Below are positions 26,965 to 43,178 of a stretch of 64,000 bases of DNA, piece after piece. Location: positions 4,898,001-4,962,000 of the forward strand of contig NZ_SMGE01000001.1 of the NCBI RefSeq assembly GCF_004339525.1, read 5' to 3'. Under the pieces are notes generated by a model. That model was given only the letters and a program-made list of their open reading frames with translations. It ran no database searches and was not told where the DNA came from. The position numbers were made by a program, and so were the translations under genes. The stretch is from Flavobacterium sp. 90. GTDB taxonomy: Bacteria > Bacteroidota > Bacteroidia > Flavobacteriales > Flavobacteriaceae. Position 1 is the stretch's first letter; every line of letters starts with the position of its first letter.

Positions 26965-27048
26965 AAATGCTGTTTTCCTGAACCCGTCAATTAGATTTGG
27001 GTGATTGATTGTATTAATAAACAGGGGAGAACTTTTAAAGTTCTGGCG

Positions 27049-27082
27049 CAAATTTATACTTATTTAGACTTAATCCATACAA
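27049..27082 (-). promoter_or_regulatory. Promoter of the PepSY gene with candidate iron box
   Basis: On the minus strand TTG (27082-27080), a 23-base spacer and TAAATTTG (27056-27049) fit the phylum consensus at its upper spacing limit. Read on the + strand, the spacer contains TTATTTAGACTTAAT (27060-27074), which closely resembles the partial palindrome TTATTTAGAATAAATAA at 41863-41879 in the siderophore divergent region. A Fur-type iron box is the suggested meaning. Confidence 0.5.
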
Positions 27083-27362: not shown

Positions 27363-27418
27363 CATTGTTTTTATTCATTCTAAATAAAAGCAAAATACCT
27401 AACCAAAACTTAAAATCA

Positions 27419-29806
27419 ATGAAATATCTTAGTTTAAGAACATCAAAGTTTTTACTTATTATTAGCTTTCTATTTTCGGTCATTTCATCTTTTGCACAAC
27501 AAAATAGCGGAAAGATCAAAGGACAAATAACAACTTCTGACGGAAAATCGGCTTCAGGAGCTACAATTATCATTATAAGTTCAAAATATAGAACCACTGC
27601 TAAAAGTGACGGTAGTTTTACATTCAATAAAGTTATTGCAAATACTTATACTCTACAGGCTTCTTTGCCAGGTTATGAAACGATTGAAAAGAATATTTAT
27701 GTAACCAATAATGAAACCGAAACTGTAAATCTTCAATTGAAGTTTACGGGAAAACTTGACGAAGCTTCAGACAATAATGGCGATCAACTGGATGAAATCA
27801 TCGTTTCGGCAAGCAGAAAAGTAGAAACATTATCAAAAACACCTTCTTCTGTAACGGTAATTAATGCCAAGGATATCGAAGATTTATCGATTGTTAGTCC
27901 TAATATTGCAAATGTTGTGGCGTATGCAGTTCCGGGTTTAGGATCGGCAACGAATAATACAGGTAACTACGGACAAACACTTCGCGGAAGAAATCCGTTG
28001 GTTCTTATTGATGGAATTCCGCAATCTACGCCATTAAAATCAGCAGGAAGAGAAATACGTTCTATCGATCCTTCGGTAATCGAACGCATTGAAGTAATCA
28101 AAGGTGCAACTGCAATTTACGGAAATGGTGCCGATGGAGGTTTGATCAATTATATTACAAAATCGGGTAAAACTCAAAAGAAATTTGCCGGATATAGTGA
28201 AGCAGGAACGAACGGAAACATTAAAGGAGACAGTACTTTAGGATATAGATTTAACCAACAGTTTTACGGTCGACTTAATAAATTCAATTATATGGTTTCC
28301 GGGACTTACGATAAAACAGGCGTTTTTCGTGATGGCGAAGGACAGGTTATTTCTCCGGAATACGGATTAGGGGAAACCAAAACCTATAATATCTTTACGA
28401 AACTTGGATATGATTTAACAGACAAACAGCGAATTGAGGTGATGTACAATTATTTCAGTTCGAATCAGGATTCTGATTTTATCCTTAAAAATGGTGTTTA
28501 TGGCGTAAGTCCGGCGATTGGTATTTTGGGCAACAGACCGGGAGTTGATGAAGGAACGCGTTACAATCACAATGCAAATCTTCAATATGTAAACAAACAG
28601 CTTTTCGGGAATACTTCGTTTACGGCAAATCTTTATTTTCAGGACTTTTTAACGATATTTTCTAATTCGACATTCTTCTACGGAAGTGGACAATCTCAAA
28701 CTGCTTCTGCCAAAAAAGGTGTTAGAGTTTATCTGAATACGCCATTTACAATTTCTTCAAATTTCACAGGAGATGTAACGTATGGTCTTGATTTATTGAA
28801 TGATAAAACAAATCAAAAACTTGTTGACGGGCGAGTTTGGGTTCCAAATATAAACATGGTCAATCTTGCTCCATATGCGCAATTATCGACACAGATTTTT
28901 GGTGATTTTAATGTAAAAGCTGGTTTACGTGCAGAAAATATCAAGATTAATATCGACGATTACAACACGCTTGCAACAGGAGCAAATGGCGCGGGAAGTA
29001 TTGCTGTTAAAGGCGGTGATCTTACTTATGATGCTTTTGTATTTAATACCGGGGTGAGATATTCGAAGTTTAGATTCTTCAATCCTTTTGTGAGTTTTTC
29101 TCAATCTTTTTCTGTATTCGATCTTGGCCGAGTGCTTACAAATGCCAAAGAAGATGCAATCTCAAAACTACAGACAAAACCTATTATCGTAAACAATTAC
29201 GAAGGAGGTTTTAGTAGTCAGCTTGGGAAATTTAATTTAAGTGCCGCTTATTATTTCAGTACTTCAAAACTAGGAACAAATCTGGTTCAGGTTGATGGTT
29301 ATTTAGTTGCAGAACGTTTACCGGAAAGAGTTTGGGGTTACGAAGTTCAGGCAGATTATCAAATTCTGAAGCAATTGACAGTAGGAGGAAACTACGCTTA
29401 TGTGCAAGGAAGAGGCGATAAAGATTCTGATGGACATTTTTACGGACCTACAGATATTTACCTAAAATCAAACAGAATTCCTCCTGTAAAAGTAACGGGT
29501 TATGCAAAATATGGTGATGAAAGATTAAACGTAGAATTGTATTGGATGTTGGTTGGTGATCGTGATCTTTTTCAGCCAAATGCTAAAGGTGCTTATGCAA
29601 TTGGCGAAGGTCCAATTCATTCTTTCAATTTATGGAATTTGGCTACAGCCTACAAAGTTACAGACAGTATCAGAGTAAAACTTGGAATTGAAAACATATT
29701 CAACACCGATTATTATACTACAACGGCTCAGTTTTATGGTACAAATGCCAACTATACAAGAGGAAATGGTACAAGATTTAATCTGGCTCTTGGTTATAGT
29801 TTCTAG
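27419..29806 (+). CDS. TonB-dependent siderophore receptor with CarboxypepD_reg domain
   Basis: From the ATG at 27419 the protein has 795 residues. A signal peptide (ends ISSFAQQ), a CarboxypepD_reg domain (KIKGQITTSDGKSASGATIIIISS) and a plug (EIIVSASRKVETLSKTPSSVTVINAKDIEDL; NPLVLIDGIPQSTPLKS; VIERIEVIKGATAIYGNGADGGLINYITKSG) are followed by a barrel that ends with a final strand closing in Phe (NGTRFNLALGYSF). The plug style is that of ferric-siderophore receptors such as FhuE/FecA types. It diverges from a PepSY membrane protein and neighbours a hydroxamate siderophore biosynthesis set. It is therefore the likely outer-membrane receptor for that siderophore. Confidence 0.92.
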   Translation: MKYLSLRTSKFLLIISFLFSVISSFAQQNSGKIKGQITTSDGKSASGATIIIISSKYRTTAKSDGSFTFNKVIANTYTLQASLPGYETIEKNIYVTNNETETVNLQLKFTGKLDEASDNNGDQLDEIIVSASRKVETLSKTPSSVTVINAKDIEDLSIVSPNIANVVAYAVPGLGSATNNTGNYGQTLRGRNPLVLIDGIPQSTPLKSAGREIRSIDPSVIERIEVIKGATAIYGNGADGGLINYITKSGKTQKKFAGYSEAGTNGNIKGDSTLGYRFNQQFYGRLNKFNYMVSGTYDKTGVFRDGEGQVISPEYGLGETKTYNIFTKLGYDLTDKQRIEVMYNYFSSNQDSDFILKNGVYGVSPAIGILGNRPGVDEGTRYNHNANLQYVNKQLFGNTSFTANLYFQDFLTIFSNSTFFYGSGQSQTASAKKGVRVYLNTPFTISSNFTGDVTYGLDLLNDKTNQKLVDGRVWVPNINMVNLAPYAQLSTQIFGDFNVKAGLRAENIKINIDDYNTLATGANGAGSIAVKGGDLTYDAFVFNTGVRYSKFRFFNPFVSFSQSFSVFDLGRVLTNAKEDAISKLQTKPIIVNNYEGGFSSQLGKFNLSAAYYFSTSKLGTNLVQVDGYLVAERLPERVWGYEVQADYQILKQLTVGGNYAYVQGRGDKDSDGHFYGPTDIYLKSNRIPPVKVTGYAKYGDERLNVELYWMLVGDRDLFQPNAKGAYAIGEGPIHSFNLWNLATAYKVTDSIRVKLGIENIFNTDYYTTTAQFYGTNANYTRGNGTRFNLALGYSF

Positions 29807-30151: not shown

Positions 30152-31540
30152 CTAAACTAAACTCTCCATTTCAAGCCATTCCTTAAGCAGCGGATAATTC
30201 ACTTTTCCGTTTGGCGTAAGTGGCACATCTTCGATAGGCATTACTTTTAAAGAATTAGCATGAAGATTCAGTTTTGCTTTTAAGACTTTTAGAATCAACT
30301 CTTTGTTTAAATTTTTGTCTGTGTACATTACGGCCAAATGTTTATCGTTTATTCCTAAGCAAATAAAAGTTTGTCCGCCCAAAGCATCTTTCAGCAGAAG
30401 CTCTGTTTCATCAAGATTGAGGCGTACGCCAAATAATTTTACAATTCGTTTTATTCGGCCTACAATATAATAGTAACCTTCGTCGTCTTTTCTGGCTTTG
30501 TCTCCGGTATGAAGTTTTTCCTGTTGCTCAAAAAACTGAAGATCTGATCTGATATTGGCATAACCGCCAAATACATTTGGACCAATATAGATCAGTTCGT
30601 CGGTTTCATTGTCGATTTCGAAACGACCGTTTTTGACTGGTAAACCAATCGAAGTTCCTTTTCGTAATAAATCTTTTGGAGGCAAGTACGCCATTCTTCC
30701 GCAAGCTTCGGTTTGACCGTATTGCGCAAAGAATTGTTTACCGAATTTCTCACTAAAATCTGAAATTGCTTCGATCAGTTTATGGTTTAACATTCCGCCA
30801 GTATGCGTAAGATATCTAAGAGAAGGATGATCTTTTTTGAAAAAGCCAATGCTGTACAACATCTCATAAAAATAAGGAACTCCGCCTAAAGTAGAATAGC
30901 CGTATTTTTTGAAATCCGCCCAAAATTCTTTCTGAAAAGCATCTTTATCCGTACATACAATTTGACTTGCTTTCATGCAATTTGTAGTGAAAATAGATAA
31001 TCCGTACACAAAATTTATAGGCACATTTAATGGCACTACATCATCAGTTCGGATTGGCATATATTCCATAATTGATTTTGCATTCTGAACCAGATTTTCA
31101 TCAGAAAGTCTTACGAACTTTGGCGAACCTGTAGTTCCGGAAGTACTTAGCAGAAGTTTGGTTTTGGCATGTATCGGATAAATTAAATTCACATTTCGTT
31201 TAAACAATACAATACTTTCTGATGCATTTACTGCAACATAACCTTCGATTTCTGTTCGCGTAGGATCGTAGATATAATATGGAGTATATTTTTGTTCTAA
31301 ATTCTCCTTAAAATCCTCTAATAATCCCATTCCTAATAAGGCAATTGTGTATCTGCTTTGATAAAAATTCAGCAATGTTTCTATTGCCGGCAACTGATTA
31401 TCATTGTATATAAAAACGACAGAACGCAGGTTTTCAATTTCAAGAGACTGATGCATATCTGCAATCGACTTTGAAATTCCTGTACTCGAATCTGTAAAGA
31501 TCAGTTTTTCGTTTTTTCGGATTAAATCGTATAGTTCCAT
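30152..31540 (-). CDS. AMP-dependent acyl/aryl ligase (adenylation enzyme) for a carrier protein
   Basis: The 462-residue protein has the ANL-superfamily core motifs: A3 LLSTSGTTGSPKFVRLS (130-146), A5 YGQTEA (about 274-279), A7 LHTGDKARKDDEGYYYIVGRIKRIVKLFG (343-371) and A10 PLTPNGKVNY with catalytic Lys446. The N-terminal subdomain is short, which gives a smaller enzyme than typical acyl-CoA synthetases. It lies just downstream of an 80-residue acyl carrier protein on the same strand, so it probably adenylates an acid and loads it on that carrier. In this siderophore context the acid could be a fatty or hydroxy acid or an amino acid. The sequence alone does not tell. Confidence 0.88.
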   Translation of the reverse strand: MELYDLIRKNEKLIFTDSSTGISKSIADMHQSLEIENLRSVVFIYNDNQLPAIETLLNFYQSRYTIALLGMGLLEDFKENLEQKYTPYYIYDPTRTEIEGYVAVNASESIVLFKRNVNLIYPIHAKTKLLLSTSGTTGSPKFVRLSDENLVQNAKSIMEYMPIRTDDVVPLNVPINFVYGLSIFTTNCMKASQIVCTDKDAFQKEFWADFKKYGYSTLGGVPYFYEMLYSIGFFKKDHPSLRYLTHTGGMLNHKLIEAISDFSEKFGKQFFAQYGQTEACGRMAYLPPKDLLRKGTSIGLPVKNGRFEIDNETDELIYIGPNVFGGYANIRSDLQFFEQQEKLHTGDKARKDDEGYYYIVGRIKRIVKLFGVRLNLDETELLLKDALGGQTFICLGINDKHLAVMYTDKNLNKELILKVLKAKLNLHANSLKVMPIEDVPLTPNGKVNYPLLKEWLEMESLV

Positions 31541-31617
31541 AAGTTTAGGTCTATTTTAATCGGTTAGTTGTAATTATTGAAAAATGATTTAATACATAGT
31601 TTCGAAGTCCAATGAAT

Positions 31618-31683
31618 CTCTCGCAAAGTCGCAAAGCCGCAAAGTAATTATTCAAACTTGGCGACTTGGCGACTTTGCGAGAA
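31618..31683. repeat. Dispersed GCAAAG palindrome, family A, copy 4
   Basis: CTCTCGCAAAGTCGCAAAGC and GGCGACTTTGCGAGA form an imperfect inverted repeat between the ligase and carrier-protein genes. It may act as a transcript-processing or termination structure between them. Confidence 0.75.
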
Positions 31684-31771
31684 AATTTCTCAGGTATAAT
31701 CGTCAAAAAAAAGCTTAATTTATTGACAATTAGCCTCGGAACTATGTACTAAAAAAGTATAACGCGTTGTT

Positions 31772-32014
31772 CTAATTAATTTCGAATCCGTATTTTTTAA
31801 GGATATCTTTTATTTTTGCTACACTTCCCATTTCCAGAATATCTTCCATTTCGATAGAGATATTATAAGTGCTTTCGAGTTCTTCTACCAAAACTAAATG
31901 ACTCATAGAATCCCATTCGGCAATAGCCTGATATTCTAATTGGTCGTTTACTGCTTCAACAGGAATTTCAAAAGCTCTTGCAAATACTCCGTGTAATTGT
32001 TCTATTGTACTCAT
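31772..32014 (-). CDS. Stand-alone acyl carrier protein
   Basis: The 80-residue acidic four-helix protein carries the phosphopantetheine site WDSMSHL, with the modified serine at Ser36. The following helix (VLVEELESTYNISIEMEDILEMGSVAKIKDIL) matches ACP helix II-III. It is not the housekeeping FabD/AcpP type, which has a DSLD motif. It is paired with the AMP-forming ligase downstream and lies in a siderophore biosynthesis set. The expected role is to hold an activated acyl or aminoacyl group as a thioester. Confidence 0.9.
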   Translation of the reverse strand: MSTIEQLHGVFARAFEIPVEAVNDQLEYQAIAEWDSMSHLVLVEELESTYNISIEMEDILEMGSVAKIKDILKKYGFEIN

Positions 32015-32095
32015 TTTATAGTATTAAAATTAAATTGATATTTTTATGTGTTGATTTTTTTTACGCAGATTTTAAAAAGATTTAGCGGAATTATT

Positions 32096-32195
32096 GTCAT
32101 TCCGACAGAGGAGGAATCCCCACAAGAAACTAACGCACAGTACTTTTCTTAAATTGTCGAGCTACTTGCGGAGATTCCTCGTTCCTCGGAATGAC
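32096..32195. repeat. Imperfect 23-base inverted repeat between MATE and carrier-protein genes
   Basis: GTCATTCCGACAGAGGAGG (from 32096) and a matching complement ending CCTCGGAATGAC (32195) bound a 100-base element. The same GTCATTTCGACAGAGGAG word recurs at 43321 and, inverted, near 43780. Confidence 0.6.
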
Positions 32196-32267
32196 AAAAA
32201 CAGACCAAAATCCTTATACTACTCAGTTAAATCTGCTTAATCTGCAAAATCTGCGTGAAACAAAATT

Positions 32268-33674
32268 TTAAACCTTAGTATGTTTCCATTTTCCTTTTCG
32301 AAAGACAATTATACAGGCAACCGCCAATACAATTTCAGACAAAAGAATGGCTGTAAAAACACCATTTGATCCCAGTTCAAAAGAAATTCCTAAAGCATAC
32401 GCCAGCGGAATCTGAACGATATAAAACATTAAAATATAAAGCCAGGTTACGACTTTGACTTCGCCTGCAGCATTTAAAGCTCTTGAAATAACCATTGTAT
32501 ATCCCAGAAGTATATATGCCATCGAAATAAAATGGATATATCTTGTACTAAAGGAAATCACTTCGGGAATATCTGTGAAGATTTTGACCACGGGAACAGC
32601 GAGGAAAATCCACGAAATTCCAATTAAAACCAAGAATCCCATATTTAGCATTCCGGCTCTCCAAACTGATTTTTCGGCTCGATCGGGTTGTTTTGCGCCA
32701 AGATTTTGTCCGGTTAATATTCCGGCTGCATTTCCTAATCCCCAGGCTGGCATTGTCGCAATCGAAGTTACTCTTTGTGCCAGAATGTATCCCGCCAATG
32801 CATTAGGTCCAAAATGCGACATAATCTTAATCATAAATACCCAACTTGAAGCAGGAATTATAAATTGAACTGTTCCGCCAAAAGCCAGTTTTCCTATTCT
32901 TTTGAAAATAGCCAGATTAAAGACCATTTGTGCCAAACCGATTTTCATGACTGTTTTGCCTCTTATTAAATACCAAGCCTGATAAAGTACGCCAATAACT
33001 CGGGCAATTAATGTCGCTAATCCTACGCCTAATAGACCGTAAGCGGGAATTGGTCCCCATCCGAAAATGAAAATTGGACATAGAATAATATTGATTGCAT
33101 TTGACACCCAAAGTATTCTCATCGCCGTAGAAGCATCGCCCGCGCCACGAAAGATTCCGTTGATTACGATACGCAGAATCAAAAATCCGCTTGACGCAAA
33201 CATCACGATTCCGTACGAAGTTCCTTCCTGAACCATTTCGGCAGAAAGTCCCATTGCGCTCATAATATCGGTTGCCCAAATCGTACAAACAACGCTTATA
33301 AGTGCTGCAATTGGTGTTGTGACATAAATTACCTGCATCGCAGTTTGTCCGGCAGCTTTGAATTTTTTCTCGCCAATTCTTCGTGAAATCATTGCCGATG
33401 CTGCGATTCCTAAACCTATCGAAACCGAATAACAAAACGTAATAAAAGTGGTTGTTGCGCCAGCAATAGAAATAGCATTTGTACCTAATCTACTCACAAA
33501 GAATAAGTTTGAACAAACGAATAAAGATTCCATCAAAAGTTCTGCAACCATTGGCACAGACAATAAAATAATGGTTTTGTTGATACTTCCTGATGTGAAA
33601 TTGCTTTCGCTTCCGGCAAGAGAACGCCTTAAAAGACTAAAGAAAGAACGTGTTTTTAAAATAGCTTCTTTCAT
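32268..33674 (-). CDS. MATE family efflux transporter, probable siderophore exporter
   Basis: The 468-residue protein has twelve helices in two MATE repeats (INKTIILLSVPMVAELLMESLFVCSNLFFVSRLGTNAISIAGAT; second half GPNALAGYILAQRVTSIATMPAWGLGNAAGILTGQNLGA, where GQNLGA is a MATE mark). Its start overlaps the stop of the NIS synthetase upstream by four bases (ATGA), which shows translational coupling. In hydroxamate siderophore loci the coupled exporter usually exports the finished siderophore. MFS exporters are more usual for that job. It is an inner-membrane, cation-driven exporter. Confidence 0.9.
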   Translation of the reverse strand: MKEAILKTRSFFSLLRRSLAGSESNFTSGSINKTIILLSVPMVAELLMESLFVCSNLFFVSRLGTNAISIAGATTTFITFCYSVSIGLGIAASAMISRRIGEKKFKAAGQTAMQVIYVTTPIAALISVVCTIWATDIMSAMGLSAEMVQEGTSYGIVMFASSGFLILRIVINGIFRGAGDASTAMRILWVSNAINIILCPIFIFGWGPIPAYGLLGVGLATLIARVIGVLYQAWYLIRGKTVMKIGLAQMVFNLAIFKRIGKLAFGGTVQFIIPASSWVFMIKIMSHFGPNALAGYILAQRVTSIATMPAWGLGNAAGILTGQNLGAKQPDRAEKSVWRAGMLNMGFLVLIGISWIFLAVPVVKIFTDIPEVISFSTRYIHFISMAYILLGYTMVISRALNAAGEVKVVTWLYILMFYIVQIPLAYALGISFELGSNGVFTAILLSEIVLAVACIIVFRKGKWKHTKV

Positions 33675-35506
33675 GCGTTTTCTTTTTCGATTAATACTTC
33701 CTGATGGATCAATTGATGCAACGGATTTGGAATAAAACCGCTTTTTTTCATGTGTGGAAAACCAACCGTTTCTTCATAACCATTATACAAACGTCGGCTA
33801 TTGAAAATTAGACGTTTAAACTCCGGAATGAATAAATTGTATTTGTCGAACATGTCCTGAAGCTCCGGATGTTCTTGCTGATATTCTAAAATAATTTCGT
33901 GAACACAATTCCAGAAAGAAGTTTCAGAATAGTTTGCTGACGTAATTAATACATCGCTCAGATATCTGAAAAAAGCATCAAAAACGGCAATAAGTATCGT
34001 TAATGGCGCATTTTCGGGATTTGGAGAAGCGACAAACATATTCTCGATAAATTCCTGCGGAAGTTTTTTCTTTCCTTTTTCATTAATTAAAATATCACCC
34101 ACAAAATCTTGCAAAGCAATTCGCGTTGGAACGTAATCTTTTAGAATAAGAATCACATTTTGTCCATGCGGATCGATGCATAAAGAATGTTGATAATAGA
34201 TTTGAAGCACAGGTTTTAGATATGCCGTCATATACGCTTTTAGCCATTGTTCTGTCGAAAGTCCTGATTTTTCAATCAATTCCTCGACAAGACTTTTACC
34301 ATGATCGTCGACATAAAGCAAGGCTGCCATTGTCATTAAATTTTCGCCGTGTTTTAGATAATTGATTGGACTTTCTCGCCACATTGCACCCAAATATTCG
34401 TTGTATTGATACGGCGTATTTGCAACTTTACTGTAATTTGGATGTGTGTAACTAACCGAAACCATTTCGCCCAAAAGCACAACATCCATTTTTTGCAAAT
34501 GCTGATCTTTCTTAAGAATATCTTTCAAATAACCTGTCAAACGTGGCGCAATCGATAATTGTCTTGGACATAAACCTCGAATGTGACTTGTATTTAAGAT
34601 CGACATTGACGTTTTTACGTAATGTTTGTTGGGTTTGCTTTGGTTAAAAAAAGTACGAATGCTTTGTTGCGGACTATAAATATCTTCGGTTAATTCTAAC
34701 GGAATAAGATGTTTAGACGCAATATCATTGGCAAATTGCATGACTAATTTATTTTGCCATTGCCATAAATGGATGGGAATAAAAATGTAATCGTCCGGAT
34801 TTACTTTCGTCTGAATTAGTTTGTTTCTAAAGGTTTCTATTTTTTCAGAACCAATTTCATTTTCATAGAAACTCTGATCGTTCATATCGGTTTGGAGGCG
34901 CAAAGTTGCTCTGTTTTTATGAGCAGCAATCCAAACCAATCGTGTTTTTTGACCGGATTCAGGCGTGTAATTTTCGTAATCTTCGGAATCAAAACCTATT
35001 CGGCCTTTGTTTACAATTACCCACGGATGACCGTCGAGACTGTGTTCGATGGTTTGAAAATCGGCATCAGCCAACTTTGCAGCCGACAAACGACGTCTCG
35101 AATGAATAAAAGCATCGGCATATAAAGTATGCAGCAATTCTTCGATATAATGAGCAAGTGTGAAAGAATTGATCCCGAAAGTTTCCTGAAGTTCAATAAA
35201 GAAATTCGGAACATCAATTTGATCCAGTTTTACTTCATTTTCGATTTTATGAATACTTTCTTTGACAATATGCCAGTAATTCAGAAACCTTGGATAAGCC
35301 GAAAAACTGTAATAAATATTCTCTTTATCGGTTTCTAATATAAAATGTGTCAAACCATTTTCTTCGCGGCTAACTATTTGTGGTTTCGCAACATCTTCAC
35401 GCATTAATTCTGCGATACTTTTGGCGAGTAGGTTTCGATTTACTTTATCCCAAGTCGCTGAGTTGAGATGCTGTGCGTCTTTGAATGTGTTTTCTGGGGT
35501 TATCAT
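33671..35506 (-). CDS. IucA/IucC family NIS siderophore synthetase
   Basis: The 611-residue protein has the length of stand-alone NIS synthetases. Its ATP/carboxylate motif is EHSLDGHPWVIVNKGRIGF (about 154-172), the family's H-P-x-x-K-x-R-x-G-F element. The C-terminal FhuF-like part contains LCIDPHGQNVILILKDYVPTRIALQDFVGDI. The enzyme adenylates a carboxylate such as citrate or a succinyl group and condenses it with a hydroxylamine or amine. It is the second synthetase of the locus. The other is fused to an acyltransferase. Two synthetases argue for at least two distinct amide bonds or a macrocycle. It is coupled to the MATE exporter. Confidence 0.95.
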   Translation of the reverse strand: MITPENTFKDAQHLNSATWDKVNRNLLAKSIAELMREDVAKPQIVSREENGLTHFILETDKENIYYSFSAYPRFLNYWHIVKESIHKIENEVKLDQIDVPNFFIELQETFGINSFTLAHYIEELLHTLYADAFIHSRRRLSAAKLADADFQTIEHSLDGHPWVIVNKGRIGFDSEDYENYTPESGQKTRLVWIAAHKNRATLRLQTDMNDQSFYENEIGSEKIETFRNKLIQTKVNPDDYIFIPIHLWQWQNKLVMQFANDIASKHLIPLELTEDIYSPQQSIRTFFNQSKPNKHYVKTSMSILNTSHIRGLCPRQLSIAPRLTGYLKDILKKDQHLQKMDVVLLGEMVSVSYTHPNYSKVANTPYQYNEYLGAMWRESPINYLKHGENLMTMAALLYVDDHGKSLVEELIEKSGLSTEQWLKAYMTAYLKPVLQIYYQHSLCIDPHGQNVILILKDYVPTRIALQDFVGDILINEKGKKKLPQEFIENMFVASPNPENAPLTILIAVFDAFFRYLSDVLITSANYSETSFWNCVHEIILEYQQEHPELQDMFDKYNLFIPEFKRLIFNSRRLYNGYEETVGFPHMKKSGFIPNPLHQLIHQEVLIEKENA

Positions 35507-35666
35507 CCTGATTATTTTTTCTTATTTATTTAATTCGTTTGCGTATTAATTTTAACAGATAGAGACATATATTTTATGTGTGAAAAAAGGATATTAAAAG
35601 AAACTCATTTCTTTACACATAGCTGGTCCCGATCCCGAACCGTTGGGCAATGTCATGCCGAATAAA

Positions 35667-35742
35667 TCTCTCGCAAAGGCGCAAAATCGCAAAGGGTTTG
35701 TCATTTGTGTTTAAACTTTGCGTCTTAGCGCCTTTGCGAGAT
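35667..35742. repeat. Dispersed GCAAAG palindrome, family A, copy 5, in the 35507-35828 gap
   Basis: TCTCGCAAAGGCGCAAAATCG and a complement containing CTTAGCGCCTTTGCGAGA form an imperfect hairpin. The flanks carry family E words (CACATAGCTGGTCCCG, GGGACTATGTGTTAA), so one element seems inserted in the other. It separates the N-hydroxylase from the second synthetase, so a separate promoter for the latter is possible. Confidence 0.7.
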
Positions 35743-35828
35743 TAATTTTATTTTCTAAAAAGCTTAACTTAATGACATTGAGCGTCGGGACTATGTGTTA
35801 AATATTTTTATCAATTATACACAGTTAG

Positions 35829-37169
35829 TTACTCGTTTATTAATTCCAAAACATTGGCTTCAGACAATTCCTGCGTGTTTTTTTGTACGCCAAATTGTTG
35901 AAATGCAATTCGTTTTTCGACTTTATAAACTTCACGATTCGCAAGCTGATTTATAATCCATGAATTTCTGTAAGCGCCCATTCCTAAATCCGGAGTAGAA
36001 AGTCCGTGTGTGTGTAATTCAGCATTTTGAACAAAAATATCTGTACCGTTTTTGTCAATTGTATAATTGCGATTTACATTGAATAAACCATTTTCTAAAC
36101 GTTGGATTTTGCTTTCGATTCCTGTAAGAATTCCAGGTTCTTTGTATTTATATCCAGTTGCGAGAATTACATAATCTGTTTGATCTTCAAAAGGTTGGTC
36201 TAATTCTGTGTGAACGAAATCAAGATTATAAGATCCGTCTCTTTCTTCGTTAACGGAAGTCAGACGCATATTCGAACGTAATTCTACATTTAGAGGTTTA
36301 TCTTCTAAACTCATTTCGTACAAACTATCGAAAATTTCGTTGATTAATTCCTGATCGATTCCTTTGTAAAGTCCGTGTTGTCTCGCCAGAAGCTGTTTTC
36401 GTTTTTCATCAGAAAGACTATGAAAATGATCTACATATTCAGGAGAAGTCAATTCAAGCGTTAGTTTTGATTTATTATCCAAAGGGAAAAAGTGAGACGA
36501 ACGTGTAAACCATTTTAGCTGTAAACCATTTTCAGTTTCAGGCAAAAGATCACGGAATACTTCGGCCGCACTTTGTCCTGAACCAATAATAGTCACAGAT
36601 GCATTTTTGTTAATGCGTGATTTAAAATCCAGATATCTAGATGCGTGAATTACATTTGGCAAAACTTCCTGATCTATAAAGTCCGGAACATGTGGAGAAG
36701 TTCCGGTTCCTAAAACAATTTTATTGGCATAATAAGTTGTTGTTATGCAAGTTTGCGTATTGATAACCATTATTTTATAAAGATTATCAACGTAATCAAT
36801 TGAAACTACTTTATGAGAAAACTTGCAATTTGGTAATTGATTTGCGACCCATTTGCAATATTCGTTGTATTCTCGTCTGTAAATGAAGAAATTTTCTCGG
36901 ATATAAAATTTGTAGATACGTCCGCTTTCTTTGATGTAATTTAGAAAGCTATATTTATTTGTAGGATCTGCCATTGTGACCAAATCTCCCAAAAACGGAA
37001 CCTGAAGTGTTGCATTATTCAGCATAAGTCCCGGATGCCAGTCAAAACTTTCTGACTGATCAAAAAACAGTGCCGATAATTCTTCAACAGGTTCTATAAG
37101 AGCGGCAAGTCCAAGATTAAAAGGACCAATTCCGATTCCGATTACGGAGTATATTTTTTCTGTACTCAT
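35829..37169 (-). CDS. Lysine/ornithine/diamine N-monooxygenase (SidA/IucD/PvdA family)
   Basis: From the ATG at 37169 the protein has 446 residues, the usual family length. A longer frame upstream overlaps the previous gene and is not needed. The FAD motif is GIGIGPFNLGLAALIE, the NADPH motif is TIIGSGQSAAEVF, and DYVILATGYKYKEPGI is the ATGY element. These mark flavin-dependent N-hydroxylases of siderophore pathways. Given the decarboxylase in the same run, the substrate is probably a diamine (cadaverine or a hydroxylated cadaverine) rather than free lysine. The start lies 17 bases after the stop of the fused synthetase gene, so the genes are cotranscribed. Confidence 0.95.
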   Translation of the reverse strand: MSTEKIYSVIGIGIGPFNLGLAALIEPVEELSALFFDQSESFDWHPGLMLNNATLQVPFLGDLVTMADPTNKYSFLNYIKESGRIYKFYIRENFFIYRREYNEYCKWVANQLPNCKFSHKVVSIDYVDNLYKIMVINTQTCITTTYYANKIVLGTGTSPHVPDFIDQEVLPNVIHASRYLDFKSRINKNASVTIIGSGQSAAEVFRDLLPETENGLQLKWFTRSSHFFPLDNKSKLTLELTSPEYVDHFHSLSDEKRKQLLARQHGLYKGIDQELINEIFDSLYEMSLEDKPLNVELRSNMRLTSVNEERDGSYNLDFVHTELDQPFEDQTDYVILATGYKYKEPGILTGIESKIQRLENGLFNVNRNYTIDKNGTDIFVQNAELHTHGLSTPDLGMGAYRNSWIINQLANREVYKVEKRIAFQQFGVQKNTQELSEANVLELINE

Positions 37170-37186
37170 TGTGGTATTTTTACGAA

Positions 37187-39634
37187 TTAAACTTGAGGTG
37201 CTGAAATTGTGTTGTTTTGAAAATCTTTGGCAGCAGGAAATTTTGCCCAATACCATTCTCTGTAACAGAAGTTTAGATTGGCTTTTTTATGTGGCATTTC
37301 GATCACTTTTTCGATTTTAAAACCTACATGCGCTTTATTCATCATTGACGCGATGGAATCTACAGATCCTTCACCAACCATTTTGCCTACTTTTGGTTCT
37401 CCAAAAACAAAATCCATCATCGATTGTGTTGCCGGAGATCCGTATTTTAGTTTTGGATCTGTTGGTGCGATAAATTGATGCGTTCCATAATCTGACGGAA
37501 GAACATCATAATATTCTCCTACAATATCGCGGCTTGCCCAATATACTTCAATGTTAAAAGTTGGAATTCCATTTGCTTCGCCAATAAAACTGTGCCCATG
37601 ATCTCCGGGAAGTAGCATTCTGTAAAAGGCTTCGATTTGGCGAATTGGCCAGTTCATTTGCCAGATTTTCAAAGCATGTTCACGGTGAAACCATTCGTGA
37701 AGCATCTCAATATCTTTGTCAATATCAACAGGACGCATGGTTATCGTTACATTTTCTTTTTCGAAAAAGCGACTGAAAACAGTTGTATTTTCTTTAGGAT
37801 TAATCAGTTTTTTAGAGAAAAAATGTTTGTTTAAAGGATTAGGATAAGTTCTGTAAACCGCCGGATTTGTTCTTGGCGCGCTGGCTTCATCCATATTATT
37901 TAAACTAGTTAACAGATTTCCTTTTACCACCAATGTCACACTATTTGTAAAATGCGAAACTAAACCTGTCGTATCTGAATCTTCTTGTTTTTTTAATGCT
38001 TCATAGATCAAATTAAGCAATACATTTTCGTCAACTAGTTTGTTTTTGCCCAGAATACTTGTTATTCCAAACAAATGATTTACTAAAAGATAATATCCCC
38101 AGAAATCAATAATTCTTTTTTCGGCGATAAAAGATCTGCTATCTTTTCCGAAATCCGGAATCAGTTTTTCTAATTCTTCAACTTTTCCCTGACGGAAAAA
38201 ATAACCCTGATTGTCTCTGAAATAGAGTTTTATAGGAAAAAGATTTTCATCGAATTCGACCAACATATTTTGCTGATGAAATTCAGAACCAAATCCGTAT
38301 TTATTAAAAACTCCAACCAAAGGCGTTATCGTAATATTTAGATATTGTTTGAACCATGAAAGTGCTGTTTCGGTTACAGAAGAATCTTGTCTTTTGGCTG
38401 CTTCATTGATAAGATTCACGATTCTTGGTGTTTCGCCCAAAATTCCGTCTTGCGAAAGTGAAGCAACCATCGTTACATTTTTCTTTGCATTGGCTCCATG
38501 AAAAGGATTTTGACGAATGCTCGTGCTAAAACCGTCAATAATTTGATCTTCATAAGTAACGGCGATAAAAGCAGGATCTGTAATAAGCTGAATTTGTGGA
38601 AAATCTTCCTGAATGCCTTTTCCCCAATCGGTTTTCATCAGTAATGCAGCGTCATAACCACGATTTAATTCGTGTAGATAATTAACGCGGAATGAATTGG
38701 TGATTTTTACATGCAATGAAAATTTGTACATCCATTCGCTTTCGGCATTATAAACGGTACGAACAGAGGAAGTTGCCGTATAAGAAGGTCCAAATTGCCC
38801 AAGATTGAATAAAAGTTGTTTCGATTCCATTTCTTTTACTTCCTTTTGATCCAATAAATATTGGGCTTCCCAAGGATGAACCGGAATTACTTTATAATTG
38901 GTATAAAAATCCAGTAATTCTTTGGCGTGTTTATCTGCGTATTTCGAAATTTCATTTTTCAGATGATCTGTGAATAAAAATTCTTCTGCATTTTTTTCTA
39001 TTATATTTTCCGGATGAATAAGGAAAAAATGCAAAGGAAATTTCCCTGCGGTTTCAGGAGAATATTTCAGCAATTCGTCTTTTGTAAAACCTTCTCGGCT
39101 TTTTGGCAACGGATGCACGCTATGTCCAAGAATCAAAGATTGTTCTGATTCTATAAAAGTTTGTTCGGCATTGTTGGCAGAATGATCGCTATTTTTGTAA
39201 TGTTCCAGATATAAAGCCAGATTATCAATACTGTTTTCCATACGTTCCTGCGTAGGAATTGCATCTATATCAGGATATTCTGTTTTAGAATAAGAAGCTA
39301 CAAACGCTGTAAATTCCATTGGATTTATGGCTTTGATTTCGTCAGTTTCAATATTGCGTGATACAATTGGAAAACCAAACGAATGAACACCGCTTTCAGA
39401 AAAATAAGTCAGCGGAGCAAAAACTTCCTGACCAATAGCTGAAAAATCAAATCTGAAGAATGTACTGTGATTAATCGTCTGCATGAAATCAGCCAGCGTT
39501 TGATCGTATTTTGGAATGCCTTCGTAACGGCTCCAATTGCTGAATTCTCTGCAATAACAATTGAGCAGGGATTTAAAATTTACCTGTTCTGCCAGTTGAT
39601 GAAAATTAGTTAAGTCTGTGGTATTCATTTCCAT
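37187..39634 (-). CDS. Fusion: IucA/IucC NIS synthetase + GNAT siderophore acyltransferase
   Basis: The 815-residue protein has two parts. Residues 1 to about 610 are a full NIS synthetase, with ILGHSVHPLPKSREGF (168-183) and SEFHQQNMLVEFDENLFPIKLYFRDNQGYFF (450-480). Residues about 631-800 are an IucB/RhbD-type acyltransferase (ITMRPVDIDKDIEMLHEWFHREHALKIWQMNW, then HSFIGEANGIPTFNIEVYWASRDIVGEYY). The acyltransferase would acylate a hydroxylamine with, for example, succinyl- or acetyl-CoA, and the synthetase would join the product to another unit. Fusions of these activities are known in bisucaberin-type pathways. The gene overlaps the decarboxylase upstream by 29 bases. Confidence 0.95.
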   Translation of the reverse strand: MEMNTTDLTNFHQLAEQVNFKSLLNCYCREFSNWSRYEGIPKYDQTLADFMQTINHSTFFRFDFSAIGQEVFAPLTYFSESGVHSFGFPIVSRNIETDEIKAINPMEFTAFVASYSKTEYPDIDAIPTQERMENSIDNLALYLEHYKNSDHSANNAEQTFIESEQSLILGHSVHPLPKSREGFTKDELLKYSPETAGKFPLHFFLIHPENIIEKNAEEFLFTDHLKNEISKYADKHAKELLDFYTNYKVIPVHPWEAQYLLDQKEVKEMESKQLLFNLGQFGPSYTATSSVRTVYNAESEWMYKFSLHVKITNSFRVNYLHELNRGYDAALLMKTDWGKGIQEDFPQIQLITDPAFIAVTYEDQIIDGFSTSIRQNPFHGANAKKNVTMVASLSQDGILGETPRIVNLINEAAKRQDSSVTETALSWFKQYLNITITPLVGVFNKYGFGSEFHQQNMLVEFDENLFPIKLYFRDNQGYFFRQGKVEELEKLIPDFGKDSRSFIAEKRIIDFWGYYLLVNHLFGITSILGKNKLVDENVLLNLIYEALKKQEDSDTTGLVSHFTNSVTLVVKGNLLTSLNNMDEASAPRTNPAVYRTYPNPLNKHFFSKKLINPKENTTVFSRFFEKENVTITMRPVDIDKDIEMLHEWFHREHALKIWQMNWPIRQIEAFYRMLLPGDHGHSFIGEANGIPTFNIEVYWASRDIVGEYYDVLPSDYGTHQFIAPTDPKLKYGSPATQSMMDFVFGEPKVGKMVGEGSVDSIASMMNKAHVGFKIEKVIEMPHKKANLNFCYREWYWAKFPAAKDFQNNTISAPQV

Positions 39635-41129
39635 TTTGTTTTATGAGGTTAAGAATGTTTTTAATGTCATTTAGGGTTGTAATCGGATTGAAAATGGTGA
39701 ATTTCAAATAGAATTCTCCGTTTACTTTTGTACTTGCAACTAATACATCTCCGCTAAAAAAGAGTTTTTCTTTAATGTATTGATTGACTTCGCAAGAGTT
39801 TGATTCGGCTGGACCGTCAAGATATCTAAACACTAAAACGCCCATATCTGAATGACATAATAATTCGAAGTTTTCATCAGATTCTATGTAGGCGGCTGTT
39901 TTTTGCGTTGTTTCGATAATAGTATCGGTAAATTGTCCCAACTTTTCTTTACCTAAATAACGAAGCGTAAACCAAAGTTTCAAGGCATCAAAACGGCGTG
40001 TACTTTGAATAATTGATTTATTGATTTGCGCCGGAAGTGCGTCGTAGTTTTGTTCTTTTGGATTTAAATAATCAGCGTGATGTTTGATTATATTTAAGTG
40101 AAGTTTATTTTTCACGATAAAAGCACTGCTGCTTATAGGCTGAAAAAAGGATTTATGATAATCAATTGTTACAGAATCTGCGAGTTCAATTCCGTTTAAA
40201 AGATGTCTGTGTTTTTCTGTCAAAAGCAATCCACAACCGTAAGCTGCATCAACGTGAAGCCATATATTATTGCGATTGGCAATTTCTGCAATAGCTTTTA
40301 GCGGATCTACATTTCCAAAATCGGTAGTTCCTGCGGTTGCTGTAATCGCAATTGGAATATTGCCTTTTTCGATTTCCTGTTTAATTGCTTTTTCCAGTTT
40401 TTCAGGATCCATTCGGTATCTTTTATCGACACCAACATGAACGATCGCTTGTTCTCCAAGACCTAAAATCCATGCATTTTTATGATTACTAAAATGTGCT
40501 TTATCAGAAACAAAAACTCTGAATTTTGAAGCATCAACAGGAAGTCCGTCCAGTTTGATATTCCATTTTTGGTATTCTAACGAATAATAATCTCTAGCCA
40601 AAAGCAATCCCATTAAATTACTTTGCGAACCTCCGGCAGTAAAGATTCCGTCGCCTTGTTTGTAACCAATTTGTTCGCTTGTCCAGTCGATAAGTTTACG
40701 TTCCATAAAAGTTCCGCCGGCACTTTGATCATAAGTATCTTGCGAAGAATTTATAGCGCTTATCAAAACTTCTGCTGCCAAAGCCGGAATTACTACAGGG
40801 CAATTTAAGTGCGCGATATACTCCGGAAGATGATAAGCTGTGGCATGATTTACATAGATTTCGTCGACTTCGTTAAGCAGACTTTCATAATCGGGTAGTG
40901 GTGAATCAAAATCTATGGCTTCGATTTTGGTTTTCATTTCCGCAGGTCTGATTCCTGTAAAAGGTTTTTTTGTGTTTTTTAGAAAATTAGAAACACGTTC
41001 CTGTGCTAGTTTTACAGCATTTGCATATTCTGAACCAGAGTTTTGGTGAAATATGTCTTTGTAAAGATCCTGTTCTGCCAGGACTGCTTTATCTGTAGGT
41101 TGATTTTCGTTGATTAGCGTGGTATTCAT
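39606..41129 (-). CDS. PLP-dependent group II decarboxylase for siderophore diamine (DesA/RhbB-like)
   Basis: The 507-residue protein is a fold-type I PLP decarboxylase. The cofactor-binding region is FTAGGSQSNLMGLL (about 163-176), LHVDAAYGCG (291-300) stacks the ring, and Lys326 in DYHKSFFQPIS forms the Schiff base. Close family relatives in siderophore loci decarboxylate lysine or 2,4-diaminobutyrate to the diamine that is then N-hydroxylated. It follows the nitroreductase gene by 30 bases and overlaps the fusion synthetase by 29, placing it second in a tight operon. A lysine-hydroxylase-like gene diverges from this operon, so hydroxylysine is a plausible substrate. Confidence 0.92.
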   Translation of the reverse strand: MNTTLINENQPTDKAVLAEQDLYKDIFHQNSGSEYANAVKLAQERVSNFLKNTKKPFTGIRPAEMKTKIEAIDFDSPLPDYESLLNEVDEIYVNHATAYHLPEYIAHLNCPVVIPALAAEVLISAINSSQDTYDQSAGGTFMERKLIDWTSEQIGYKQGDGIFTAGGSQSNLMGLLLARDYYSLEYQKWNIKLDGLPVDASKFRVFVSDKAHFSNHKNAWILGLGEQAIVHVGVDKRYRMDPEKLEKAIKQEIEKGNIPIAITATAGTTDFGNVDPLKAIAEIANRNNIWLHVDAAYGCGLLLTEKHRHLLNGIELADSVTIDYHKSFFQPISSSAFIVKNKLHLNIIKHHADYLNPKEQNYDALPAQINKSIIQSTRRFDALKLWFTLRYLGKEKLGQFTDTIIETTQKTAAYIESDENFELLCHSDMGVLVFRYLDGPAESNSCEVNQYIKEKLFFSGDVLVASTKVNGEFYLKFTIFNPITTLNDIKNILNLIKQNGNEYHRLN

Positions 41130-41159
41130 AAAATAGTTGTTTAAGGGGTTTAGTTATTG

Positions 41160-41792
41160 TTATTCTAGATAAATGACTTTTTTGGGTAGGGGAGTTCGCT
41201 TTTTTGTGGATGATTTTAAATCCTCAGGATAATATCCGAGATAGAGTAGTCCTAATGATTTTTCGTTTTCAGCAAGACCAAATTGAGAAACATAATCTAT
41301 CGCAACTCCTTTGGAGCTCCAATAACTGCCAATTTTATGTGCTGTACAGGTAAGCGCGATATTTTGTACAGCCGATGAAATTGCAGCAATTTCTTCCCAT
41401 TCTGGCAGATTAATTTTGGTATTTCGAACCATAATTACGCCGATAAGGCAAGCTGCATTTAGCGGATAATTGGCGAGATAGCGAAGTTTTTCTTTTTGAT
41501 CTTCAGGAGATAATTCACTGTAGAAATCCGTGTAATACTGCGCCATGTATTCGCCATATTCTTTTAGATATTTTCCTTTAAAAACAATAAATCTCCAAGG
41601 CTCTGTCATTTTATGATTTGGTGCCCAAGTAGCATTAATCAGAATCTCTTCAAGCAATTTATCAGGCAATTCTTTTTTGATGAACTCATTGGCAAAGACG
41701 CTTCTTCTGTTACGAATATTCCTGGAAACTTTTTTTAGTTTATCAGAAGATTCTGATTGCCCGTATTTGCTGGCTTTGTATTTAATTTTCAT
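41160..41792 (-). CDS. Nitroreductase family flavoprotein
   Basis: The 210-residue protein is a short nitroreductase-fold FMN enzyme. RNRRSVFANEFIKKELPDKLLEEILINATWAPNHKMTEPWRFIVFKG is the conserved opening, with the R-x-S-x-R-like FMN contact, and AAISSAVQNIALTCTAHKIGSYWSSKG is the second core segment. It is the first gene of the siderophore operon, 30 bases before the decarboxylase. Flavin reductases in such operons may free iron from the siderophore or supply reduced flavin. That role is inference, since this family is functionally broad. Confidence 0.85.
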   Translation of the reverse strand: MKIKYKASKYGQSESSDKLKKVSRNIRNRRSVFANEFIKKELPDKLLEEILINATWAPNHKMTEPWRFIVFKGKYLKEYGEYMAQYYTDFYSELSPEDQKEKLRYLANYPLNAACLIGVIMVRNTKINLPEWEEIAAISSAVQNIALTCTAHKIGSYWSSKGVAIDYVSQFGLAENEKSLGLLYLGYYPEDLKSSTKKRTPLPKKVIYLE

Positions 41793-41824
41793 ACATTTTT
41801 GAAATTTTTTTAAGAAAATTCTTT

Positions 41825-41879
41825 TTGTTTTGATTAAATAAAAATATATTTGTAAGTAAATATTATTTAGAATAAATAA
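41825..41879 (+). promoter_or_regulatory. Promoter and candidate iron-responsive operator in the divergent siderophore region
   Basis: TTG (41825-41827), 17 bases, TATATTTG (41845-41852) is an exact phylum promoter on the + strand reading toward the dioxygenase gene. Just downstream, where transcription would begin, lies TTATTTAGAATAAATAA (41863-41879), an almost perfect palindrome. It shares TTATTTAGA with the PepSY promoter region at 27060-27074. A repressor binding here would block the start site. Fur is the natural candidate. The + strand leader would be about 200 bases long. Confidence 0.55.
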
Positions 41880-42062
41880 GAATAGTGTTTGACAAATGTA
41901 TAAATTAATCTTTATAAAAAAAATAAATGCAGAAAAATTTATACGAATGTCCGTACATATTAAAACATATGTACTTAGTGTTTAAGTTTTATTTAATTGA
42001 ATATTAAGTAATTGTAAATTTTATTACCCACATCTTTTAATAACTATAAATGAATTGAAAAA

Positions 42063-43178
42063 ATGAAATCACAATCAATTATTGCAGCCGAAAGGCCTGT
42101 AAAAACAAGTTTAAGTTTTGAAATTCCTACAAAGCCATTAATAGTAGTAGTTACGCCTCAGGAACGGAATATTTTGTCGAATGTTGGCAATCTTTTAGTA
42201 AAAGCTTTTGATCATTATGAAAACCCCGATTATATTGCCGCGCTTCATCTTCACGCTTTTCAATTGCTTCCGGAACGTATTAGCAGAATTTTGAGTCAGT
42301 TTGGTTCTGATTTTTCGGCTAATCAATATGGGGCAATTGTTTTTCAAGGACTTTTGGAAGTGGATCAGGAAGATTTAGGTCCAACGCCTCCAAACTGGCA
42401 AGGCGCTGATTATGCTAAGCTGAATAAATACGGATTTATATGTTCGCTTCTTCATGGCGCGGTTCCTTCTAAACCGGTGCAATATTATGCGCAAAGAAAG
42501 GGCGGAGGACTTTTGCACGCCGTGATTCCGGACGAAAAAATGGCTGCAACTCAAACAGGTTCCGGTTCAAAAACGGATTTGTACGTTCATACTGAAGATG
42601 CTTTTTTGAGCAATCAGGCTGACTTTTTGAGTTTTCTTTATCTAAGAAATGAGGAAAGGGTTCCTTCAACTTTATATTCGATTCGTTCGCACGGTGAAGT
42701 CAATGAGATTATGGAAAAATTATTTGATCCGATTTATCAGTGTCCAAAAGATGCTAATTATGAAGATGATGAAGCGATTCCGGGACCAACGGCTTCTGTT
42801 TTATATGGAAACAGACAACTTCCTTTTATCCGCTTTGATGCTGCGGAACAAATATTCAATGAAAATGCAGGACAAACTCCGGAAGCGCTTTACAATTTAA
42901 CTGAATTTTGGAATGAGGCTAAGGAACTTATAAATAGTGAATATGTCCCAAATTCCGGTGATGTTATCTTTGTGAATAATCATTTATGCGCACATGGGCG
43001 AAGTGCTTTTGTGGCGGGACAACGTGAGGAAAATGGCAAGATTGTAAAATGTGAACGCCGACAAATGCTAAGAATGATGAGTAAAACGAGTTTGATTCAT
43101 ATGCGTTCTGTAACTCAGACTAATGATCCTTATTTTATTATGGAAGAGCATTTGGGGAAAATTTTTGATCTGGATTAA
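42063..43178 (+). CDS. Fe(II)/2-oxoglutarate dioxygenase, L-lysine 4-hydroxylase-like (KDO/clavaminate synthase-like)
   Basis: The 371-residue protein has the facial triad His176-x-Glu178 (YVHTEDAF) and distal His311 (NNHLCAHGRSAF). The following RRQMLR holds the expected 2-oxoglutarate-binding Arg. Its overall look (PKPLIVVVTPQERNILSNVG-like opening, QYYAQRKGGGLLHAVIPDEKMAATQTGSGSKTDLYVHTEDAF) matches the free-amino-acid hydroxylases of the VioC/clavaminate synthase group. By my recollection it is close to the lysine 4-hydroxylases described from Flavobacterium johnsoniae and relatives. It diverges from the siderophore operon with its decarboxylase and N-hydroxylase. It probably makes 4-hydroxylysine for that pathway. 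Hydroxylation of another amino acid remains possible. Confidence 0.88.
   Translation: MKSQSIIAAERPVKTSLSFEIPTKPLIVVVTPQERNILSNVGNLLVKAFDHYENPDYIAALHLHAFQLLPERISRILSQFGSDFSANQYGAIVFQGLLEVDQEDLGPTPPNWQGADYAKLNKYGFICSLLHGAVPSKPVQYYAQRKGGGLLHAVIPDEKMAATQTGSGSKTDLYVHTEDAFLSNQADFLSFLYLRNEERVPSTLYSIRSHGEVNEIMEKLFDPIYQCPKDANYEDDEAIPGPTASVLYGNRQLPFIRFDAAEQIFNENAGQTPEALYNLTEFWNEAKELINSEYVPNSGDVIFVNNHLCAHGRSAFVAGQREENGKIVKCERRQMLRMMSKTSLIHMRSVTQTNDPYFIMEEHLGKIFDLD

Follow-up and report, generated by a model that had tools for sequence, protein, structure and literature searches.

Why does the gene of a predicted free-lysine hydroxylase stand at the head of a siderophore operon in Flavobacterium sp. 90, and which siderophore would this operon make? 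The question is raised by a 64,000-nucleotide stretch of the genome (contig NZ_SMGE01000001.1, positions 4,898,001 to 4,962,000 of the forward strand; hereafter the window), in which an Fe(II)/2-oxoglutarate dioxygenase gene (KDO) diverges from genes for a decarboxylase, an N-hydroxylase, an acyltransferase and siderophore synthetases. A sequence-only reading had proposed that 4-hydroxylysine is decarboxylated to a hydroxy-cadaverine and built into a hydroxylated siderophore not known to it as a described product. The pathway remains the best reading, given the type of KDO and its co-conservation with the locus; the product, on the other hand, has described counterparts, since chryseochelins A–C contain 3-hydroxycadaverine. 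In our view, the locus probably directs, under control by iron, the synthesis of a citrate dihydroxamate siderophore of the chryseochelin type.

Chryseochelins A–C, described in 2023 from the Chryseobacterium strains CHR2, CHR5 and CHR6, are citrate siderophores based on 3-hydroxycadaverine (PMC9989332). In chryseochelin A (C24H36N4O15), 3-hydroxycadaverine in the form of its N-fumaryl hydroxamate makes up both arms on citrate, and nuclear magnetic resonance placed the hydroxyl group on the middle carbon; the structures of B and C were derived by mass spectrometry only (PMC9989332). The reported [M+H]+ of chryseochelin A is 621.22385, compared to 621.225 calculated from its formula, and hydroxycadaverine gives fragments of m/z 117.102 and 100.076 (PMC9989332). 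For chryseochelin B, one arm was proposed to be joined as an ester via the hydroxyl group of 3-hydroxycadaverine, while chryseochelin C bears varied fatty acids on the freed primary amine (PMC9989332). The authors called hydroxylation at this position unique and the biosynthetic pathway still to be proven; the terms ‘gene cluster’ and ‘dioxygenase’ do not occur in their paper (PMC9989332). Chryseochelin is mentioned in seven papers of the open-access PMC literature, one of which is devoted to it. Among the matches listed there on hydroxycadaverine, lysine hydroxylases, and siderophores with 4-hydroxylysine or fumaric acid, titles and abstract beginnings showed no assignment of genes to such a siderophore. 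Chemically, 3-hydroxycadaverine is decarboxylated 4-hydroxylysine, and only C4 of lysine becomes the middle carbon that is hydroxylated in these established structures.

KDO (42063..43178, plus strand) is a VioC/clavaminate-synthase-like protein. By phmmer, its residues 1-371 aligned with residues 1-372 of the L-lysine 4-hydroxylase 6EUO at 743.5 bits; the next-best structure, an arginine hydroxylase, reached only 80.5 bits. When the window protein was aligned with those of 101 further loci (some genomes counted twice), 18 of the 20 checked active-site positions were invariant in all 102 sequences, including the iron ligands H176, E178 and H311. Position 167 was occupied by S in 94 of them and by A in the other 8, and position 233 varied more widely, with Y in 64, L in 28, F in 7 and H in 3; the window protein carries S167 and Y233. 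The enzyme of 6EUO/6EUR is KDO5, which was characterised in isolation; calculation led to the proposal that Tyr233 directs C4 selectivity (PMC6224419, PMC11066847). Leucine occupies this position in all 28 aligned KDOs of the Chryseobacterium group, which bears on the mechanism, as the siderophore of that group is still hydroxylated at the matching carbon. C4 hydroxylation by close relatives is established: (4R)-4-hydroxylysine was made in whole cells by KDOs of Chitinophaga pinensis, Flavobacterium johnsoniae, a Flavobacterium species and Niastella koreensis (PMC12930750). In line with the KDO-type assignment of the sequence-only reading, the window dioxygenase is, judged by homology, a full-length KDO5-type L-lysine 4-hydroxylase, sharing nearly all checked pocket residues with KDO5. 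The word ‘siderophore’ does not occur in the two KDO5 papers, so that they assign no such native role (PMC6224419, PMC11066847).

KDO is separated by a gap of 270 bases (41793..42062) from an operon on the minus strand. Its transcription order is as follows: a nitroreductase-family protein (41160..41792; PF00881, 61.8 bits), a pyridoxal phosphate-dependent decarboxylase (DEC; 39606..41129; PF00282), a fusion of an N-terminal IucA-like synthetase of the nonribosomal peptide synthetase (NRPS)-independent siderophore (NIS) type with a C-terminal GNAT hydroxamate acyltransferase (37187..39634; PF04183, PF06276 and PF13523), a diamine N-hydroxylase of the flavin monooxygenase type (NMO; 35829..37256; PF13434, 396.7 bits; the true start may lie further in), a second NIS synthetase resembling DesD, AlcC and DfoC (type C; 33671..35506; PF04183), a MATE exporter (32268..33674; TIGR00797, 221.6 bits against a cut-off of 147.4), an acyl carrier protein (ACP) of 80 amino acids (31772..32014; PF00550, 25.2 bits with the cut-off at 20.8) and an AMP-forming ligase (30152..31540; PF00501). 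The genes named in the sequence-only reading, their strands and the divergent dioxygenase were confirmed by long open reading frames (ORFs) and family-level matches. ACP and ligase belong to the operon as well, beyond the genes first listed. The IucA/IucC family cut-off of 25 bits was exceeded by two proteins of the cluster (252 and 179.5 bits), the only two IucA/IucC proteins found in the 6.65-Mb single-contig genome. This, together with the recurrence of the gene set in other genera and families, argues that the set is not assembled by chance.

The locus holds both an N-hydroxylase (PF13434) and a hydroxamate acyltransferase (PF13523), and a candidate enzyme for each building block of the chryseochelins. 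For this organism, we infer the individual steps and the exact acyl group as follows. First, KDO would hydroxylate free L-lysine at C4. Second, DEC, with 4-hydroxylysine as predicted substrate, would yield 3-hydroxycadaverine (1,5-diamino-3-pentanol). Third, NMO would N-hydroxylate one amine of this diamine, and the GNAT domain would transfer an acyl group to the hydroxylamine, most probably a fumaryl group that the ligase activates and ACP carries. The IucA-like and then the DesD-like synthetase would join two arms to citrate, either via the free amine or via the new C3 hydroxyl as an ester, as proposed for chryseochelin B. Finally, the MATE protein would export the siderophore, and a TonB-dependent receptor and a PepSY-TM protein encoded next to the operon would return its ferric form.

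A lack of co-conservation of KDO with the locus had been named beforehand as a finding that would refute the pathway; KDO was found to be co-conserved, with the genomes G532 and G856 as exceptions. Of 229 genomes of the same genus, 18 carried KDO and 28 carried DEC (E <= 1e-70), and each of the 18 with KDO also possessed DEC (Fisher p 5.6e-20, with the window genome included and kinship uncorrected). The two matches were 922-979 bases apart in 17 of these 18; in the eighteenth, G788, they lie on separate contigs, with KDO 201 bases from a contig end. DEC of the ten genomes without KDO showed an identity of 45-50% in eight, 62% in G732 and 85% in G532. Of 395 genomes of the phylum, 6 possessed KDO and 11 DEC (E <= 1e-90), including all 6 with KDO (G464, G532, G383, G597 and G564 being the five without), and of 299 genomes of the family, 3 possessed KDO and 5 DEC (E < 1e-120), those 3 included; the three samples share some genomes. 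In a scan with one genome per species, which overlaps with these samples and in which loci were chosen by KDO, 100 relatives of KDO were found and the best 80 of 100 were kept with 10-kb flanks. DEC lay within the flank at 79 of these 80 loci, and at the remaining one, L098, the stretch ends 201 bases from KDO.

The decarboxylases themselves follow the presence of KDO. In a tree of 73 sequences, all 57 KDO-positive rows fell into one set of 58 (SH-aLRT 100), the only KDO-negative member of which was G532. The KDO label changed twice on this tree, compared to 14.8 changes in shuffled labels, and none of 500 shuffles was as low. These values come from a quick method with a chosen outgroup that did not form one side of a branch, and from rows sampled via KDO if positive and via DEC if negative; one partial locus and 24 loci that were near-copies or lay at an edge were left out, and near-copies by themselves cluster labels. 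A single association of KDO with the decarboxylase and one loss in G532 would be the most economical reading of the tree. At nineteen positions, all 57 KDO-positive rows agreed in a residue that occurred in none of 13 KDO-negative rows, from which G532, G732 and G564 were excluded. Two of these positions change from hydrophobic to amide, namely Q130 (otherwise M, V or I) and N215 (otherwise L or I). The closest solved structure, 5O5C (479 bits), a decarboxylase from the desferrioxamine pathway, aligns with V and I at these positions. Q and N are retained in G532, whereas L and I are found in G732 and G564. These two residues may contact the 4-hydroxyl group of the substrate; they were picked after the list of 19 had been viewed, and other positions change otherwise, e.g., L101 replaces D, N or H.

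The sequence features of ACP and ligase bear on the acyl group. In ACP, the likely phosphopantetheine serine is surrounded by EWDSMSHL, and ACP adjoins the ligase in relatives too. The best PDB matches of the ligase in a single-sequence search were oxalate-CoA ligase and oxalyl-CoA synthetase, followed by an NRPS domain and malonyl-CoA synthetase. R282, which follows the motif YGQTEA and presumably corresponds to position 331 of the A-domain specificity code, was invariant in 12 of 12 sequences. Since fumaryl-CoA is not an ordinary metabolite, dedicated activation of fumarate is to be expected. The ligase is thus a predicted loader of a short dicarboxylate, such as fumarate, onto ACP. In the profile search, however, NRPS proteins led and DltA was level with the oxalate ligases, and the fold comparison was tied. 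As neither comparison favours a single substrate, which speaks against a firm assignment, the fumaryl-ACP step is a reasoned guess. That an ACP-bound fumaryl group made by a dedicated dicarboxylate ligase is the hydroxamate acyl donor, and that the hydroxyl group on C4 of lysine is esterified to citrate, freeing the amine for a lipid tail, is put forward tentatively and at somewhat less than an even chance.

Ligase and ACP could instead serve to load the fatty acid with which the free amine is capped in lipid forms like chryseochelin C, while the GNAT domain uses succinyl-CoA or another CoA donor. The attachment of varied fatty acids to the primary amine of chryseochelin C would fit, as would the long-chain acyl-CoA ligases among the PDB matches and in the fold comparison. 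The GNAT domain is nearest to DfoC, which uses succinyl-CoA. Nevertheless, we regard this assignment as unlikely: sequence matching put the oxalate and oxalyl enzymes first, an invariant arginine would hardly be expected in a pocket for fatty acids, fumarate would still call for its own activation, and a second acyltransferase gene was not seen in the operon.

Gene content in relatives was compared mostly by BLAST with the proteins of the window, and by Pfam for a few loci. Within the best 80 of 100 relatives, KDO, DEC, the IucA-GNAT fusion, NMO, the second synthetase, MATE, ACP and ligase were found together in 25 of 25 Chryseobacterium loci and in the one Elizabethkingia locus; a nitroreductase was found in none of these 26 (L146-L171), whose flanks end short of any possible receptor position. 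At L088, from another family and with 62% KDO identity (by which it is probably a Chryseobacterium), a receptor and a PepSY protein continue the same run of genes. Niastella, Longitalea, Sinomicrobium, Aquimarina and one Pedobacter have the core in common as far as the stretches extend; in Sporocytophaga (L143), the core is present and a match to the second synthetase is absent. The nitroreductase gene is the first of the operon in Flavobacterium, Sinomicrobium, Aquimarina and Pedobacter, and BLAST gave no match to it at the loci of Chryseobacterium, Niastella or Longitalea. Olivibacter, F. salmonis and two Pedobacter possess ACP and ligase together with a GNAT protein of 461-539 amino acids and synthetase matches on the KDO side; the only GNAT protein of this group tested by Pfam, that of Olivibacter L136, has no synthetase domain. 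Fourteen Chitinophaga loci, one of Flavihumibacter and the short stretch of [Flexibacter] ATCC 35208 have KDO and DEC and no match to ACP or ligase. By Pfam, KDO and DEC are accompanied at L127 (Chitinophagaceae) by two synthetases and a creatininase-family protein, and at L124 (Chitinophagaceae) by one synthetase together with an MFS exporter and a protein of the fatty acid hydroxylase family; BLAST indicated similar layouts at other loci. Thus, KDO also sits in other siderophore clusters, and KDO and DEC form a constant pair while the remainder varies.

The nearest structures of the synthetases point to the core of the siderophore. The NIS part of the fusion was nearest to IucA (5JM7, 175.7 bits; 36 bits with DesD), and its GNAT part to DfoC (5O7O). 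The second synthetase was most similar to DfoC, an alcaligin protein and DesD (424-405 bits). A citrate core is suggested by this combination of IucA-like and DesD-like synthetases. For NMO, the nearest structures were 6XBB, which we take to be the cadaverine N-hydroxylase of S. sviceus, 5O8P from desferrioxamine biosynthesis and the putrescine N-hydroxylase 7US3. Desferrioxamine and bisucaberin had served as the initial models; because one synthetase is IucA-like and the operon contains ACP and ligase, the model shifts to a citrate-centred dihydroxamate.

A hydroxylated siderophore not centred on citrate, i.e., a bisucaberin- or desferrioxamine-like oligomer of 3-hydroxycadaverine and succinate, would agree with the closeness of DEC, the GNAT domain and the second synthetase to desferrioxamine enzymes, and with the Chitinophaga loci, where ACP and ligase matches are missing and the synthetases match the second one of the window. 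However, as far as is known, clusters for bisucaberin and desferrioxamine possess only type-C (DesD-like) synthetases, and one window synthetase is nearer to IucA. In addition, the best NCBIfam model of the receptor was RhtA (180.6 bits, below the cut-off of that model), and the gene order matches that of Chryseobacterium, a maker of citrate siderophores. We consider the oligomer quite improbable.

Several observations weigh against the chryseochelin-type reading. The producers CHR2, CHR5 and CHR6 are named to the genus only; the comparison covered the listed Chryseobacterium loci. The proteins of these loci share only 40-42% identity with the window for IucA-GNAT, 47-49% for the second synthetase and 50-52% for NMO, hence their product may differ from that of the window. 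G532 (L065) keeps a cluster that is 79-96% identical, and no KDO was found there; other genes occupy the expected place, the nearest long one of which looks, from its translation, like an efflux pump, and a Fur-like motif is still present upstream of the nitroreductase. In G856 (F. psychroterrae; L021, L064, also L096), which is one of the 18 KDO genomes of the genus, KDO has an in-frame TAA at codon 20, and the longest ORF that still has a start codon comprises 295 amino acids; KDO may have been lost a second time here, the assembly may be in error, or another start may be used. Hydroxylation thus seems dispensable at least once, perhaps twice. Finally, G564 bears the same genus code as two KDO-positive genomes, G390 and G498; it possesses a related DEC, but KDO, ACP and ligase are not nearby, and so the KDO cluster is not present throughout that genus. 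That KDO is a bystander, with DEC using lysine as desferrioxamine-type decarboxylases do, a cadaverine-based siderophore and a use of 4-hydroxylysine elsewhere, could draw on G532 and G856 but is very improbable: 18 of 18 genomes and 79 of 80 loci pair KDO with this decarboxylase, KDO has its promoter region in common with the operon, and the DEC group tracks KDO and shows fixed hydrophobic-to-polar changes.

The KDO-less loci may bear on the history of the cluster. The sister loci L076 and L180 showed only a receptor, DEC, a synthetase (by Pfam an IucA-GNAT fusion in L180), an N-hydroxylase and MATE; L076 reaches the contig end just past MATE, so that genes beyond are possible. KDO, ACP, ligase and the second synthetase may have been gained together. 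KDO-less loci of the same genus (L077-L084 and L181) likewise have a decarboxylase, an N-hydroxylase and NIS genes, but the decarboxylase is 45-50% identical, and matches to KDO, ACP or ligase are absent; L077, the one scanned with Pfam, has GNAT domains too, one of them fused in the DfoC order.

The promoters suggest regulation by iron. A Fur-box-like site, TTATTTAGAATAAATAA, lies at 41863-41879 in the gap between KDO and the operon, and the motif TTATTTAGAATNAATAA has exactly two copies in the window, the second being upstream of the receptor gene (27371..27387, minus strand). With up to two mismatches, the pattern gave 3 matches in the window, compared to 0.66 expected, and 3 of 100 shuffles were as high; this figure is after the fact, as the pattern was drawn from the two sites themselves. 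The motif resembles the Fur box ATTTAGAATTATTCTAAAT of Riemerella anatipestifer, where electrophoretic mobility shift assays showed binding of Fur to promoters (PMC5609570). Across the genome, ATTTAGAATNAAT gave 28 sites, including the two seeds, versus 8 for the reversed control, and 7 of the 28 fall inside ORFs. Ten proteins beside nine of the sites were classified by Pfam: five have TonB-plug domains (one below the cut-off), two are imelysins, and the others are a transglutaminase-like protein, an ankyrin protein and an unclassified one. Upstream of KDO, a site with up to five mismatches was present at 70 of 101 loci (mean best mismatch 4.5 versus 6.0 in shuffled sequences), but at none of the 22 Chitinophagaceae loci. 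With such sites at both promoters, the cluster would be regulated by iron.

The far end of the operon is flanked by the genes for the TonB-dependent siderophore receptor (27365..29806, plus strand; PF07715/PF00593) and the PepSY-TM protein (25849..27051, minus strand; PF03929, 224.6 bits), a possible ferric-siderophore reductase that also follows the receptor in L088. The receptor ORF probably starts with the ATG near 27419, 40 nt past the middle of the motif. On the other side, beyond KDO, the window encodes an outer-membrane beta-barrel protein (46271-47116) and, adjoining it, a protein of 2998 amino acids (47168-56164) with many repeated units and YSWSPSGGTAATATGL-like stretches, which has the look of an SprB-type adhesin.

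Compared to known systems, the predicted product shares 3-hydroxycadaverine, citrate, two hydroxamates and a dicarboxylate acyl group with the chryseochelins, and the biosynthetic core is the same as in all 25 listed Chryseobacterium loci; the latter differ in their synthetases (40-49% identity), and the window adds the nitroreductase and a separately placed receptor. With aerobactin IucA/IucC, it has two synthetases, one of them IucA-like, and an inferred citrate core in common, but here the IucA part is fused to a C-terminal GNAT domain, the substrate would be a diamine, whereas aerobactin uses lysine, and ACP and ligase are added. The desferrioxamine enzymes of 5O5C, 5O8P and 5O7O, which we take to be DfoJ, DfoA and DfoC, offer the same decarboxylase, N-hydroxylase and synthetase/acyltransferase fusion; in DfoC, however, the acyltransferase comes first and the synthetase second, the reverse of the order in the window, and to our knowledge the Dfo system has neither a hydroxylase nor an ACP.

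The link between genes and product, a native role for lysine 4-hydroxylases and the ACP/ligase module appear to be new. The analysis joins the lysine 4-hydroxylase biocatalysts of Bacteroidota, whose native role is not stated in the cited passages on KDO, with the chryseochelins, and siderophore making is a likely native role for them. It suggests that similar siderophores may occur in Flavobacterium, Sinomicrobium, Aquimarina, Pedobacter, Niastella, Longitalea, Chryseobacterium and Elizabethkingia, and it supplies a gene set for knock-out.

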